DNA of 64,000 bases from Candidatus Peregrinibacteria bacterium (GTDB lineage Bacteria > Patescibacteriota > Gracilibacteria > Peribacterales > Peribacteraceae), in contig JABGQH010000013.1 in the NCBI GenBank assembly GCA_018648865.1, forward strand, positions 186,001-250,000. Direction: 5' to 3'. Shown one piece after another: positions 48,163-56,983 of the stretch. How positions within the stretch are numbered: the first letter of the stretch is position 1; each line of letters begins with the position of its first letter. The notes beneath the pieces were generated by a model. It searched no databases and was not told where the DNA came from. It saw only the letters and a program-made list of their open reading frames with translations. The position numbers and the translations under genes are program-made.

Positions 48163-49626
48163 TTACTTTTTTTGCTTTCGTGTTTTCTTGCGAATAATCG
48201 CAGCGCCTCCGAGCGCACTTAATCCTCCAATCAAGATGCCTGCTCCTGTACTTGGTAGAGGTCTTTTATTTCCAGAGACAATAGGCGAAATGTATGTAGG
48301 TGGGGCGGGAGTTTCTGTGATAATTATTTCTGGAACTATTACTGCAGAGTTCCCAGAAATTGGTAATTCAATTCTAGCAAAAACTTCTTTAGATACTCCT
48401 CCTTGAGGGCTTACAACAGAAACACCAATTCCATACTCCCCTGCGTGTACACCAGGGATATCTATACCATCTGTTCCTGCTGGCACTACTTGTGGCTGAG
48501 TGAATGTTCGTCCTCTGTCATTACTTTGTCTTACAAGATAAGAAAGCAAAGGCTGACATGTTCCTGCGGCAACACTCCATCTAGCATCAACATTATGTGT
48601 GCCATTCGTCTGTGCAACAGAACGCAACCTCAAATTAGTAACACTTGGAGGGTTAGCAACTGATCGTGGGTCACAAGGCTGTTCACTCGGAACAACAGGC
48701 ATTGGTACAGGTGCTACGATTGGATCTGGTGAGGGGGTGCGGACAGATACTCCATCTATATGTCCTTGGAAAGAAGCAGTTCTATTTGTTGCATCTAATG
48801 ATCCTCCTCTAATTTCCATAAGAGGTTCAGATAAAAGCACTTGATACATTTCATCTTTTACCTGCGTCTCTGTGCGTACCAAAATTGTGTGATCCTTTAT
48901 ATAAAGCCCTGCGATACGAAGTGGCAACCCATTGGAATCAATAATTTTGAAAGCGTTTGGAGCAAGTGTTGGATCAACAAATGGTACTGAATTAAATGTT
49001 AATGTGACAGATGTTGGTTCCTGCGCATACGCAAGAATTAAATGAAGAGCACCTTCTTCATATCTTACTGGTTCAAGGATCTCTGTAGTTTCCGAAGATG
49101 AGGATTGTTCTTCTGGATCGGCATCTACGGGGCGAACAACATTAAATTGAGTTGTATCTTCACTAGAAGAAGCAGATGAACTTGATTCTTGCTGAGCTGG
49201 TTCTACTGGACTGATTTCAACAGATCCTTCATCAATAGAAGCCTCAGAAAGTAAGGCAGATGTTTCTTCTAAAAAGACAGAACTTTCTTCTCCAGATTCG
49301 TTTACAGCCAACACAGAAACAAATACTCGCTCAGATAACATGCTCGTTGGAATAGAAATTTCGGACACTGGTCCTTCTGTTCCGACAAAATCATCATAGA
49401 CACCACCGTTTCCTAATATCGATCTGCTACTAAAATAAACACGATAAGATGATGCATTTTCTACCTCTTCCCACTCAACTAGCACAACCTCTTCCTCGCT
49501 AATATATTCAGCAGAGATTCCTGATACTGCTGCAGGGGCGGCAGTGCATACAGAAACAGGCAATGCACTTGCGAAAACAATGCAAGCACCAGCTAGTAGC
49601 CGTTGGCAGAGAATTTTTGTATTTAT
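48163..49626 (-). CDS. LPXTG-anchored surface protein with a fibronectin type III domain
   Basis: The C terminus is L-P-S-T-G, a hydrophobic stretch, and R-K-K-T-R-K-Q-K-K: a sortase sorting signal. An FN3-like domain sits near residues 20-110, a Ser/Glu-rich linker follows, then more beta-rich domains. The first conventional start in frame is TTG 49563 (466 residues) but it cuts the signal peptide. Extending to ATA 49626 gives N-T-K-I-L-C-Q-R-L-L-A-G-A-C-I-V-F-A-S-A, a good signal peptide, with a promoter positioned so that the mRNA starts there. No ATG, GTG or TTG lies between. No sortase gene in the window. Confidence 0.75.
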   Translation of the reverse strand: MNTKILCQRLLAGACIVFASALPVSVCTAAPAAVSGISAEYISEEEVVLVEWEEVENASSYRVYFSSRSILGNGGVYDDFVGTEGPVSEISIPTSMLSERVFVSVLAVNESGEESSVFLEETSALLSEASIDEGSVEISPVEPAQQESSSSASSSEDTTQFNVVRPVDADPEEQSSSSETTEILEPVRYEEGALHLILAYAQEPTSVTLTFNSVPFVDPTLAPNAFKIIDSNGLPLRIAGLYIKDHTILVRTETQVKDEMYQVLLSEPLMEIRGGSLDATNRTASFQGHIDGVSVRTPSPDPIVAPVPMPVVPSEQPCDPRSVANPPSVTNLRLRSVAQTNGTHNVDARWSVAAGTCQPLLSYLVRQSNDRGRTFTQPQVVPAGTDGIDIPGVHAGEYGIGVSVVSPQGGVSKEVFARIELPISGNSAVIVPEIIITETPAPPTYISPIVSGNKRPLPSTGAGILIGGLSALGGAAIIRKKTRKQKK

Positions 49627-53418: not shown

Positions 53419-54459
53419 GTGGAAACCTCATCTGACAATGGCGAAACAAAAAGACAAATTGTTGATGCAATAATTAAGACAGAGAAACTATGTGAATTCT
53501 CTACTCTTTTGCACCCTACAAATGAACAAGAGCAGAAAGAACTTTTTTTATCTGGAGCAAAAAACGAACCAACATTTACCTACAAAAAAAATATAGCCCC
53601 AGATATCTATATTCCATTTTGTTCAAGGGAATCTGAAATAGGAAATATGTATATGGACAGAAGAGAACACGTATTAATGGAGTTAGAACTATTTAAAAAC
53701 ATAGGATCAGATAAAGAGTTCACAGAGCTTTCACTAAAGCTATTTCCTATACACGAAATTAATATTGTTCCAGGCAAGAAAGAGAAGGAAGAAGAGGAAC
53801 TACTTAGTGCAGAAGGGGTTGTATTTAGATTTAAAGATGCAATAAAAAACTTAAGTGAATCAGATTGGAGTTTAAAAATTAGAGACGATCTATCATCTAG
53901 GATTTTTGTGAATCAGTGGGACAAAAAAATAGTTATAAAAGAAGGACTAAAATTAACCAAAACAGAATTAAATGAGCTGCTGCGCCATGAGGTTGGAGCA
54001 CATATTTTGCGTAGCATTCAAGGCGGCAAGCAATCAGAGCCAATTCTATGGGTAGGAACAAGGCGAGGTCGCTTGTTTGAGGAAGGTATTGCATGCTTTT
54101 TAGAGGACCCAAATGGGCCAGAAAGGATCTTCTTAAGGCATTTTGCAGTAATGCACGCTCAAACACATTCGTTCAAAGAAACATGGTTAGAACTTTGTAA
54201 TAAGGGGATGAGTGGAGAGGATGCATGGGCCATGACTCTTAGAATAAAAAGAGGCCTAAGTAGCGGGGCATCTCACGGTGGTTTCACAAGAGATGCAATG
54301 TACGCACAGGCTTTTGAAGAAGCAAAAGAATATATAGAAAAGGGTGGAGATATATCCCCCCTCCTATCTGCACCAATCCATCCAGATGAAATTGATATTC
54401 TAAAAGAAAAAGCAGAGATGAGAATATTCAGAACTCCTAGTTGGCTTAAAATTAAGTAA
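53419..54459 (+). CDS. DUF1704/MATCAP-like zinc metallopeptidase
   Basis: 346 residues from GTG 53419; a TAA in frame two codons upstream rules out a longer form. The signature L-L-R-H-E-V-G-A-H-I-L-R gives an HExxxH zinc site near residue 191, and F-E-E-G-I-A fits the family's Q/E-E-G-L third-ligand block. DUF1704 includes the human tubulin tyrosine carboxypeptidase MATCAP and bacterial QEGLP-motif proteins. The N-terminal 130 residues are helical. No signal peptide, so cytoplasmic. It is followed at once by an ATP-grasp ligase and an M20 peptidase. Confidence 0.78.
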   Translation: METSSDNGETKRQIVDAIIKTEKLCEFSTLLHPTNEQEQKELFLSGAKNEPTFTYKKNIAPDIYIPFCSRESEIGNMYMDRREHVLMELELFKNIGSDKEFTELSLKLFPIHEINIVPGKKEKEEEELLSAEGVVFRFKDAIKNLSESDWSLKIRDDLSSRIFVNQWDKKIVIKEGLKLTKTELNELLRHEVGAHILRSIQGGKQSEPILWVGTRRGRLFEEGIACFLEDPNGPERIFLRHFAVMHAQTHSFKETWLELCNKGMSGEDAWAMTLRIKRGLSSGASHGGFTRDAMYAQAFEEAKEYIEKGGDISPLLSAPIHPDEIDILKEKAEMRIFRTPSWLKIK

Positions 54460-54505
54460 TACTTACTAAGCGTCTAATTACTGGTGTGATATGCTCACAG
54501 GCACT

Positions 54506-55783
54506 ATGGATTTAAAGGGGAAACACATTTTATTAGTAGGCTACAGAGGAAAGATTTCGCATATTAAAACAGCTATTGATCAAGGTGTGTTATTTGATTT
54601 ATTAATCAATAAGGATGAAGTGAAAGATGAACATAATGAGATTTTTGACTCAGTACTAACTGTCAAAGATATTTATGATTGGAACGATATAGAACCCGTA
54701 TTACAGAAAGATAAATATGATGGAGTTTTCACACGATACGAAGACTCCACAGTAATAGTTTCTGCCATAGCTCATCACCTAGGGCTTCGTGGTGTCCCTT
54801 TTAAAGATGTTCTTAAATCTAGGAACAAATATTTAATGAGAAAAGCTTTTGCAGACCACAGTGTTCCATCAGCAGACTATGTTTTAGCTTCATCTTTTAC
54901 AGATACAGCCGAATTCACAGAAAAACATGGTTTCCCACTTATTGTTAAGCAGATATATGGGATTCATTCCAAATATGTAGCAAAAGTAGATAGCGGCGAA
55001 GAGCTAAAAACTACTATTGAATTTTTCCTTGAATCTCTAGCAAAAGAAAGTGGGCATATGTATGGGCAACTACAAAACTTTTACGAAGATGCAGATGCCC
55101 CAGATCCAATTAAAAATGTGTTAGTAGAGGAATGCCTATCTGGAGAAGAATTAACAGTTGATGCATTTGTAGTGGATGGAAAGATATTTTTCACTCCAAT
55201 CTGTAAATATACAATGCCAGATGAATTAGGATTTTCTGATCATCATCTACCGATTAGAACGATGCCATATGATGTAACAGAAGATGAACAATCATTCATC
55301 TTTGATGCTGTTAGGAAGTCGCTCGTTTCTTTAGGAGCAAACCATTGTGCATCGCATGTGGAGATATTCTTTGATAGAGAAACCAAGAACTGTCGCTTAA
55401 TAGAAGTAGCAGTTAGAGGAGGAGGATTCCGAGCAGAAATGGTAAGGCATACATGTGATGGAGACTATGATTTAGGTCTAGTAAGAGCATCCATGGGTAT
55501 GGATCCGCAAGTTAAAAATATACCAAATAAATATGTTTCAGTTGCAGAGGTTTTTGCGCCAGAGAATGGGAAATTATCGAGTATTGATACTTCTTTTATA
55601 GAAAATAATCCAGACGTACATCGCATTACATGGAACAGAATCGTAGGGGACAAAGTTGGGCGCGCATCCGATGGAAAAAACTTTATATTAAAATTCTTAG
55701 TAGAGGGAAAAACATACGAAGAGGCAGAAGGGAAAACAAGAGAATTACTTATAAAGATCCGTGATTCTATACAGGTAAATTAA
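54506..55783 (+). CDS. ATP-grasp carboxylate-amine ligase
   Basis: 425 residues from ATG 54506; TATGCT (with TG before it) ends 10 nt upstream, so ATG 54491 would overlap the promoter. The N-terminal pre-ATP-grasp fold (H-I-L-L-V-G-Y-R-G-K) is followed by the ATP-grasp domain: F-P-L-I-V-K-Q-I-Y-G-I-H-S-K, L-V-E-E-C-L-S-G-E-E, and the metal-binding block H-V-E-I-F-F-D ... R-L-I-E-V-A-V-R-G-G-G. These enzymes join a carboxylate to an amine through an acyl phosphate. Substrate unknown; flanked by two peptidases. Confidence 0.85.
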   Translation: MDLKGKHILLVGYRGKISHIKTAIDQGVLFDLLINKDEVKDEHNEIFDSVLTVKDIYDWNDIEPVLQKDKYDGVFTRYEDSTVIVSAIAHHLGLRGVPFKDVLKSRNKYLMRKAFADHSVPSADYVLASSFTDTAEFTEKHGFPLIVKQIYGIHSKYVAKVDSGEELKTTIEFFLESLAKESGHMYGQLQNFYEDADAPDPIKNVLVEECLSGEELTVDAFVVDGKIFFTPICKYTMPDELGFSDHHLPIRTMPYDVTEDEQSFIFDAVRKSLVSLGANHCASHVEIFFDRETKNCRLIEVAVRGGGFRAEMVRHTCDGDYDLGLVRASMGMDPQVKNIPNKYVSVAEVFAPENGKLSSIDTSFIENNPDVHRITWNRIVGDKVGRASDGKNFILKFLVEGKTYEEAEGKTRELLIKIRDSIQVN

Positions 55784-55849
55784 GAATTTAAGATATTGCG
55801 ATAGTTTTATTCTTCTCTATGCTCAAGGTAAGTATTTTCCTAATTAAAC

Positions 55850-56983
55850 ATGCCTCTGTATCCAGAAACATTCGATTCGTATATAGAGAGCGAGTACGAA
55901 ACACTCGTTAGGATTTTAGAAACACCAAATCCACCAGAGGGTGAGGAGAAAATGAGGGCATTAGTTAAGAAAGAGCTAAAGAATTTAGGAATGAAAACAA
56001 GTATAGATTCAGCAGGTAATTTAATAGGACATTTGGGCAAAGGAGAAAATGCATTTTTACTTGGGGGCCATTTAGACAGTGTCCAGCCATGCGAAGGAAT
56101 AAAAGTAAGGAGAGAGGGAGACATAATAAAAAGCGAAGGAGAAACCATATTAAGTGCAGACAATGGTGTAGGAATATTTGAAATAATGGCTGCTCTAAAA
56201 TATTTACACGACAACAAGCTACCTTATTGCCCTGTAGATATACTGTTTACAGTGGGGGAAGAGATAGGAGGAATTGGTGCGCAGGCAGTACAAATGTCTG
56301 ATCTACGAGCAAAGCATGGAATGCTTTTAGATAGATCAGATGACCCAGGAGTATTGGTTGTAGAGGGTCCTTACAAAAGGAACTTTTCTGTAACTTTTAC
56401 AGGAGTAAGTGCACATGCTTTTGAGGCAGAAAAAGGAGTAAGTGCAATCCATATGGCGGCTGCTTGTATATCCTTGTTCCCACAGGGAAAAATTCACGAT
56501 GGTCTATATGCGAACATAGGGCGAATACAGGGCGGCAATGCAGTTAACCAAGTTGCAGAAAATGCAGTATTAGAAGGAGAAGTAAGAGCACTAACAAAAG
56601 AGGGTGCAGAAAAATTATTAGAGGAGTATCAAAGAATAATAGATAGCATTCAGTATAAGTTCTCACTCTCTGGTGAATTCTCCCCTACTGCAGAGTTTAA
56701 ACACACAGCTCGCAGAGAGGGCTACAAGCATGACGAAGAAGACTGGTTAATAAAAAACATATCCTCTGTTCAAGAAAAACTCGGAATACCAACAAAAATG
56801 CAGGTAACCAGAGCATGTAGCGATGCAGGCGATCTAACAAACAGGGGCATAAACACAGTTAATTATGGAAACGGTGCACACCGAGTTCATACCAAAGATG
56901 AATGGGTAGACATGAAAGACATAAAAACCGCATCTTGGTTTTTGGTTAACTTCTTACAAGAAATTAAGTTAGAAGATAATTAA
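55850..56983 (+). CDS. M20-family zinc peptidase (PepT-like)
   Basis: 377 residues. Metal and catalytic residues: G-G-H-L-D-S-V, L-S-A-D-N-G-V-G, G-E-E-I-G-G, L-L-D-R-S-D, and C-S-D-A-G-D-L late in the chain (the last metal ligand is probably the His of G-A-H-R-V-H). The lid/dimerisation domain lies at about 180-290 (G-V-S-A-H-A-F-E). The family includes tripeptidase PepT and dipeptidases. It probably trims short peptides, perhaps the product of the ligase upstream, which is 66 nt away. Confidence 0.88.
   Translation: MPLYPETFDSYIESEYETLVRILETPNPPEGEEKMRALVKKELKNLGMKTSIDSAGNLIGHLGKGENAFLLGGHLDSVQPCEGIKVRREGDIIKSEGETILSADNGVGIFEIMAALKYLHDNKLPYCPVDILFTVGEEIGGIGAQAVQMSDLRAKHGMLLDRSDDPGVLVVEGPYKRNFSVTFTGVSAHAFEAEKGVSAIHMAAACISLFPQGKIHDGLYANIGRIQGGNAVNQVAENAVLEGEVRALTKEGAEKLLEEYQRIIDSIQYKFSLSGEFSPTAEFKHTARREGYKHDEEDWLIKNISSVQEKLGIPTKMQVTRACSDAGDLTNRGINTVNYGNGAHRVHTKDEWVDMKDIKTASWFLVNFLQEIKLEDN

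Follow-up and report, generated by a model that had tools for sequence, protein, structure and literature searches.

Three adjacent genes on the + strand of a Patescibacteria genome, encoding a MATCAP/DUF1704 metallopeptidase homologue, an ATP-grasp carboxylate-amine ligase and an M20 PepT-like peptidase, may form a cytosolic module for the addition and removal of an amino acid (or short peptide), a reading drawn from sequence to which we give a probability of about 0.47. They lie in the window, which here means the whole stretch of DNA analysed (64,000 nt; G000:C9:186001-250000, G000 being the host genome), and the host genome (1.13 Mb, 99.97% complete) is that of a Patescibacteria member of the Peregrinibacteria/Peribacteria type. 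The adjacency of this trio is above chance, because its order is conserved in relatives and the linkage of DUF1704 with ATP-grasp genes recurs in unrelated contexts. An earlier note on this DNA had proposed an add/remove system and drawn a parallel with tubulin tyrosination, and this interpretation is partly supported: the functional association of a ligase with exopeptidases is well supported by linkage, whereas the tubulin parallel stands for the peptidase but not for the ligase. The features discussed below are as follows.

53419..54459, +: MATCAP/DUF1704 metallocarboxypeptidase homologue, predicted eraser (346 aa; PF08014, AlphaFold2 (AF2) model, Foldseek)
53986..54003, +: HExxxH zinc-binding/catalytic motif HEVGAH, residues 190-195 (alignment)
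54079..54087, +: EEG motif, residues 221-223, putative third metal ligand (alignment)
54491..55783, +: ATP-grasp carboxylate-amine ligase, L-amino acid ligase type, predicted writer (430 aa; PF13535, structures)
55361..55417, +: putative Mg/intermediate-binding residues E291, E305 and R309 (SHVEIFF ... IEVAVRGGG; alignment to BacD/YwfE)
55850..56983, +: M20 PepT-like exopeptidase, predicted peptide-clearing/final hydrolysis step (377 aa; TIGR01883, 3gb0)

Linkage of DUF1704 with ATP-grasp genes

The close type of DUF1704 protein was found in six of the genomes searched (G000, G001, G008, G202, G203 and G204), and the order DUF1704, ATP-grasp, M20 is kept in all of them. In five of the six, pyrC stands directly before DUF1704 (the contig of G001 ends before that point), and pyrB is seen in four of these five. 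Among 59 relatives, close homologues of DUF1704 and of the M20 protein (one weak distant M20 match aside) are both confined to G000, G001 and G008, whereas pyrC is present in 43; therefore the trio behaves as a unit apart from the pyr genes. The M20 proteins of the trio genomes are 58-64% identical, and ligase orthologues within the clade are 56-57% identical. The ATP-grasp slot, however, holds one of two dissimilar ligases (BLAST E about 5 between them): an ATP-grasp_4/L-amino-acid-ligase type in G000, G008, G202 and G204, and an ATP-grasp_3 type in G001 and G203. G000 and G001 cluster in FastTree trees (support 1.00) and share a genus, and G202-G204 likewise belong to one genus. Because both ligase types occur within each of these two genera, either the slot ligase has been exchanged at least twice, or both forms are ancestral and have been differentially lost. 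The slot itself is kept while its ligase is swapped, and this in two sister lineages.

Outside this clade, we took 20 loci with a stand-alone DUF1704 gene, picked by DUF1704 only, from other families of Patescibacteria. An ATP-grasp gene lies no more than two genes from DUF1704 at 14 of the 20 loci by phmmer, and at 15 when the Pfam-confirmed locus L150 is included, compared with a background of three ATP-grasps in 137 distant genes. The binomial estimate for this linkage is ~2e-11, which is a rough guide, the background being drawn from a small sample of neighbouring genes. Relatives of both ligase types of the window clade adjoin DUF1704 among the sampled loci. In G045, genes for DUF1704 and for an N-formylglutamate amidohydrolase (FGase) accompany a related ligase (44%), and in G190 another related ligase (46%) is found together with FGase alone. 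Beyond the Patescibacteria, plasmids of Shinella and Sinorhizobium (Rhizobiaceae) carry FGase-DUF1704-glutathione-synthetase-like genes, with group II intron genes between FGase and DUF1704 on the Sinorhizobium plasmid; in Persicobacter a ligase gene adjoins one for a fused FGase-DUF1704 protein, and an FGase-DUF1704-ligase set is present in Acidimicrobiia. Conserved adjacency, which the earlier note had set beforehand as a test of its proposal, was thus found both in relatives and in independent contexts.

In a second locus of the host genome, outside the window (G000:C9:26276-30290; L156:6277-10291), a gene for a 7TM_transglut (PF14402) protein is followed by one for an 840-aa protein in which an ATPgrasp_ST domain (PF14397) is fused to MATCAP. 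The top NCBIfam match of the ATPgrasp_ST half is TIGR02291, alpha-L-glutamate ligase-like, with a score under the cut-off of that model. The 7TM_transglut partner upstream of the fusion was confirmed at all four loci examined, including that of the host; the fused domains were Pfam-confirmed at three of these and recognized by similarity at the fourth, and split versions exist in other families. The fusion is common in the class: among the DUF1704 matches listed there, open frames of ~770-850 aa are the majority.

Several other arrangements were observed at the loci collected. At L150:2495-6293, DUF1704, ATP-grasp, a RimB-type protease and RimK lie in one run on one strand, which directly links DUF1704 to the gene pair for ribosome polyglutamylation. 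Three ATP-grasp-like genes stand beside DUF1704 at L139, L142 and L145 (Patescibacteria family f51), an arrangement kept across several genera. Proteins of ~800 aa that recur in the class (L011:292-2697, L008:301-2727 and L009:1159-3684) apparently contain two tandem ATP-grasp modules, the second recognized by eye. At L092:4261-11859 (G352), four ATP-grasp genes in a row and, after them, a gene for a pyridoxal phosphate (PLP)-dependent decarboxylase resemble a peptide biosynthesis cluster. The DUF1704 frames of G057:C4, G048:C7, G145:C8 and G146:C13 (family f14, same class) contain several in-frame TGA codons, which suggests UGA recoding.

The three enzymes and their setting

The three open reading frames are all present and intact on the + strand, adjacent as the earlier note had described, and their products score over the Pfam cut-offs. 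The first belongs to the Pfam family MATCAP (PF08014; 101.7 bits, cut-off 27). The top Foldseek match of its AF2 model (pLDDT 90.9) is human MATCAP (7z5g; E 2.3e-10, TM 0.62), and the next, a weak one, is the M32 carboxypeptidase 5e3x (E 0.04). The window peptidase is thus, as judged from sequence and predicted fold, a MATCAP relative, as had been claimed. Against the QEGLA equivalog TIGR02421 it scores 89.7, below the cut-off of 338.65. Its active site is intact: H190, E191, H195 and E222 are invariant in an alignment of 10 sequences, including those of Persicobacter and Acidimicrobiia, and E222 aligns with the QEG position of QEGLA proteins. The active-site motifs of TMCP/MATCAP are HExxxH plus EEG, and TMCPs are sequential C-terminal carboxypeptidases and deglutamylases that remove one residue per step, glutamates included (PMC10499314). 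The start of the window gene at GTG is doubtful, since an AAGGAG motif extends into this codon. Carriage of this DUF1704 type by phages or viruses was rejected, viral contigs and phage records having given no match.

The ligase matches Pfam ATP-grasp_4 (PF13535) with 48.7 bits (cut-off 27). Its residues E291, E305 and R309 align to the THTE and IE-x-A-x-R motifs of BacD/YwfE and are invariant among the aligned relatives. By sequence and fold, the closest solved structures are those of L-amino acid ligases and 4dim; 3vot, 4wd3 and 3wo1 are among the top structure matches, although the query model, built with AF2 from a four-sequence alignment, is weak (pLDDT 66). The earlier note had ascribed to this protein the fold of tubulin tyrosine ligase (TTL). 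This was not borne out: the TTL profile PF03133 gave no match at E 0.001, TTL was not among the 50 structure matches listed, and membership of that family was rejected. The nearest relatives of the window ligase are instead the L-amino acid (dipeptide) ligases. Close homology to a known metabolic enzyme, which by the earlier note would have spoken against its proposal, was not found: no characterised metabolic ligase came close, and the best NCBIfam models scored far below their cut-offs (e.g. 61 bits vs 302); for the alanine-anticapsin ligase equivalog the score was 46.3 bits vs 850. Nor does it belong to the RimK family, with 35.5 against a TIGR00768 cut-off of 143.4 and no PF08443 match.

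In the M20 protein, the Pfam domains M20_dimer (48.2 bits, cut-off 21) and Peptidase_M20 (47.7 bits, cut-off 24.6) were identified. Its best-scoring family is peptidase T-like TIGR01883, for which it reaches 183.3 of the required 274.25. The alignment to 3gb0 (E 2.7e-40) retains the HLD, AD, EE, LD and VH motifs of the metal ligands and catalytic Glu.

The + strand order is pyrB, pyrC, MATCAP/DUF1704, ATP-grasp, M20 PepT-like and a NUDIX gene, beyond which a HAD phosphatase gene and an RNase J-like gene (the latter labelled by eye) lie on the - strand. Gaps of 9 bp (pyrC-DUF1704), 31 bp (DUF1704-ATP-grasp) and 66 bp (ATP-grasp-M20) separate the genes; a consensus promoter scan found no excess of promoters at the trio, and a consensus terminator scan found zero + strand terminator-like sites inside it. 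None of the three proteins has an evident signal-peptide-like sequence by eye, in agreement with the earlier note. The NUDIX gene was rejected as a fourth member, because the other trio genomes show no open reading frame for it at that place. Elsewhere in the window, positions 48163-49563 encode a fibronectin-like protein whose C-terminal LPSTG, hydrophobic stretch and KKTRKQKK resemble a sortase sorting signal, here in a Patescibacteria genome.

A possible tagging cycle and its rivals

In the proposed module, the ATP-grasp enzyme would use ATP to activate a carboxylate, which probably belongs to a protein or peptide and is either its C-terminus or an acidic side chain, and would couple this group to an amino acid. 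Working from the C-terminal end, the MATCAP-type metallocarboxypeptidase would then take off the added residues singly, and the PepT-like M20 enzyme may degrade released or overshoot small peptides; in other phyla FGase occupies this third position. The families, the intact active sites, the linkage of ligase and peptidase genes and the gene fusion are observed; we infer that DUF1704 undoes the action of the ligase, that a protein or peptide serves as acceptor and that the cycle runs in this direction, as well as the identity of the added residue. By analogy, glutamate is the leading candidate for that residue, because the paralogous fusion in the host genome has an alpha-L-glutamate-ligase-like domain, and because the characterised MATCAP/TMCP, RimB and RloA enzymes all remove glutamates.

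Several observations weigh against this tagging cycle. Synteny in the six trio genomes is by itself weak to modest evidence, because many flanking genes are syntenic there too. No ATP-grasp gene lies near DUF1704 at L112, L149, L151, L154 and L155, and DUF1704 copies on Vibrio and Pseudoalteromonas plasmids stand without an adjacent ligase. The ligase is closest to makers of free dipeptides rather than to protein-modifying ligases, and the cluster encodes no defined acceptor protein.

The last two points favour the main rival, small-peptide metabolism, which holds that rank because the window ligase is of the dipeptide-ligase type. Here the ligase would make a dipeptide or conjugate for storage, signalling or antimicrobial use, the peptidases would mature or recycle it, and no protein would be tagged. 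The nearest solved relatives of the ligase, BacD/YwfE, BL00235 and RizA, do form dipeptides, and the M20 gene is nearest to tripeptidases. We nevertheless consider this rival rather unlikely: the MATCAP homologues whose function is known work on the tails of proteins and not on dipeptides (PMC10499314), the ligases with which DUF1704 recurs (RimK-like, GshB-like and RloC-like) differ in substrate class, so that this link is not obviously specific for small molecules, and the trio is accompanied by no transporter or resistance gene.

A role in the cell envelope, in which the trio would modify or recycle stem or cross-bridge peptides of peptidoglycan, is improbable. The superfamily is related to the D-Ala-D-Ala-ligase type, in G045 the ATP-grasp/DUF1704/FGase set is preceded by a gene identified by eye as murD-like, and Pseudomonas rlo mutants have cell-shape and wall-drug phenotypes (PMC12239564). 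The murD link, however, is confined to one genome, the trio of the window clade is flanked by genes for pyrimidine synthesis, RNase J and a HAD phosphatase, and the three proteins lack evident signal peptides. Chance neighbourhood with vertical inheritance, the three enzymes having separate housekeeping roles, is disfavoured and highly improbable: synteny in the trio genomes extends to flanking genes and the window NUDIX gene indicates that unrelated genes enter this strip, but swapping of the ligase at the same slot, presence or absence as a unit, recurrent independent linkage and gene fusion all speak against it. Least probable of all, and likewise disfavoured, is a part in pyrimidine metabolism with a carbamoyl-phosphate-synthase-like ATP-grasp behind pyrB/pyrC, which is suggested by the 9-bp gap and by the position of pyrC in five of the six trio genomes but is opposed by pyrC occurring in 43 of the 59 relatives against three for the trio, by DUF1704/ATP-grasp pairs elsewhere with no pyr genes nearby, and by carbamoyl-phosphate-synthase-like matches that are weak only.

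Comparison with known tagging systems

Paired ligase/protease tagging is known from RimK/RimB, RloC/RloA and TTLL/CCP, and it was not until 2022-2023 that the human relatives of DUF1704 were recognized as tubulin carboxypeptidases. The trio would be a variation on the already known theme of paired tagging. Our full-text literature search, which did not extend to a 2009 amidoligase survey, gave no paper in which MATCAP/DUF1704 is linked with ATP-grasp ligases, and none on the function of DUF1704/QEGLA. Proteins of this family are present in several bacterial phyla. Their recurrent partnership with ATP-grasp enzymes, in some cases as a fusion, suggests a testable role as the eraser of an ATP-grasp modification, and it connects tubulin tail editing, RimK/RimB ribosome polyglutamylation and the Rlo stress operon. 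If the tagging cycle is true, even organisms with the very reduced genomes of Patescibacteria use amino acids as reversible tags. Tentatively, and with some doubt, one may go further and regard MATCAP carboxypeptidases and ATP-grasp ligases, adjacent or fused, as one family of systems for reversible amino-acid tagging that is widespread in bacteria, and from whose eraser arm the eukaryotic tubulin-trimming MATCAPs would descend.

The window peptidase shares with MATCAP/TMCP (KIAA0895L, KIAA0895; PF08014) a homologous metallopeptidase domain with HExxxH and EEG, but identity is ~19%, the genome context is without a tubulin target, and the ligase partner is encoded next door. The ligase has its nearest solved relatives, with aligned catalytic Glu and Arg, in the L-amino acid ligases named above; in contrast to them it has peptidases rather than antibiotic genes as genomic partners, and it shows only 16-18% identity in structure alignments, with equivalog scores far under the cut-offs. 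The Rhizobiaceae FGase-QEGLA (DUF1704)-glutathione-synthetase-like sets resemble the trio in clustering DUF1704, an ATP-grasp and a third amide hydrolase, but this third enzyme is FGase instead of M20 and the ATP-grasp is GshB-like.

In Pseudomonas, the effect of losing the RloA proteases of the Rlo operon (RloA-RloB-RloC) is rescued when RloB or RloC is lost as well (PMC12239564). Like this operon, the second locus of the host genome combines an RloB-like 7TM_transglut protein with an alpha-L-glutamate-ligase-like ATP-grasp, which is 40% identical to a Legionella plasmid protein. The Legionella gene set, arranged like the Pseudomonas operon, comprises a small RimK/LysX-family protein, taken here as a RimB-type (retropepsin) protease, an inactive transglutaminase and the alpha-L-glutamate-ligase-like protein. 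In Patescibacteria, therefore, a MATCAP fused to the ATP-grasp occupies the place that the retropepsin has in Rlo. The window trio, unlike Rlo, has no 7TM_transglut or other membrane partner beside it.

In RimK/RimB, which acts in polyglutamylation of ribosomal protein S6, RimB removes Glu that RimK added (PMC11957791). The trio shares with this system a paired ATP-grasp ligase and protease that would add and remove C-terminal residues; its ligase, however, is of the L-amino acid ligase type and its eraser a metallocarboxypeptidase, not a retropepsin, and beside the trio no RimB partner was found, the neighbours being M20, NUDIX, HAD and pyr genes. The bacterial RimK/RimB and RloC/RloA pairs are better precedents than tubulin tyrosination, and on the best reading the closest functional kind would be that of RimK/RimB, RloC/RloA and TTLL/CCP, with a MATCAP carboxypeptidase as the eraser.

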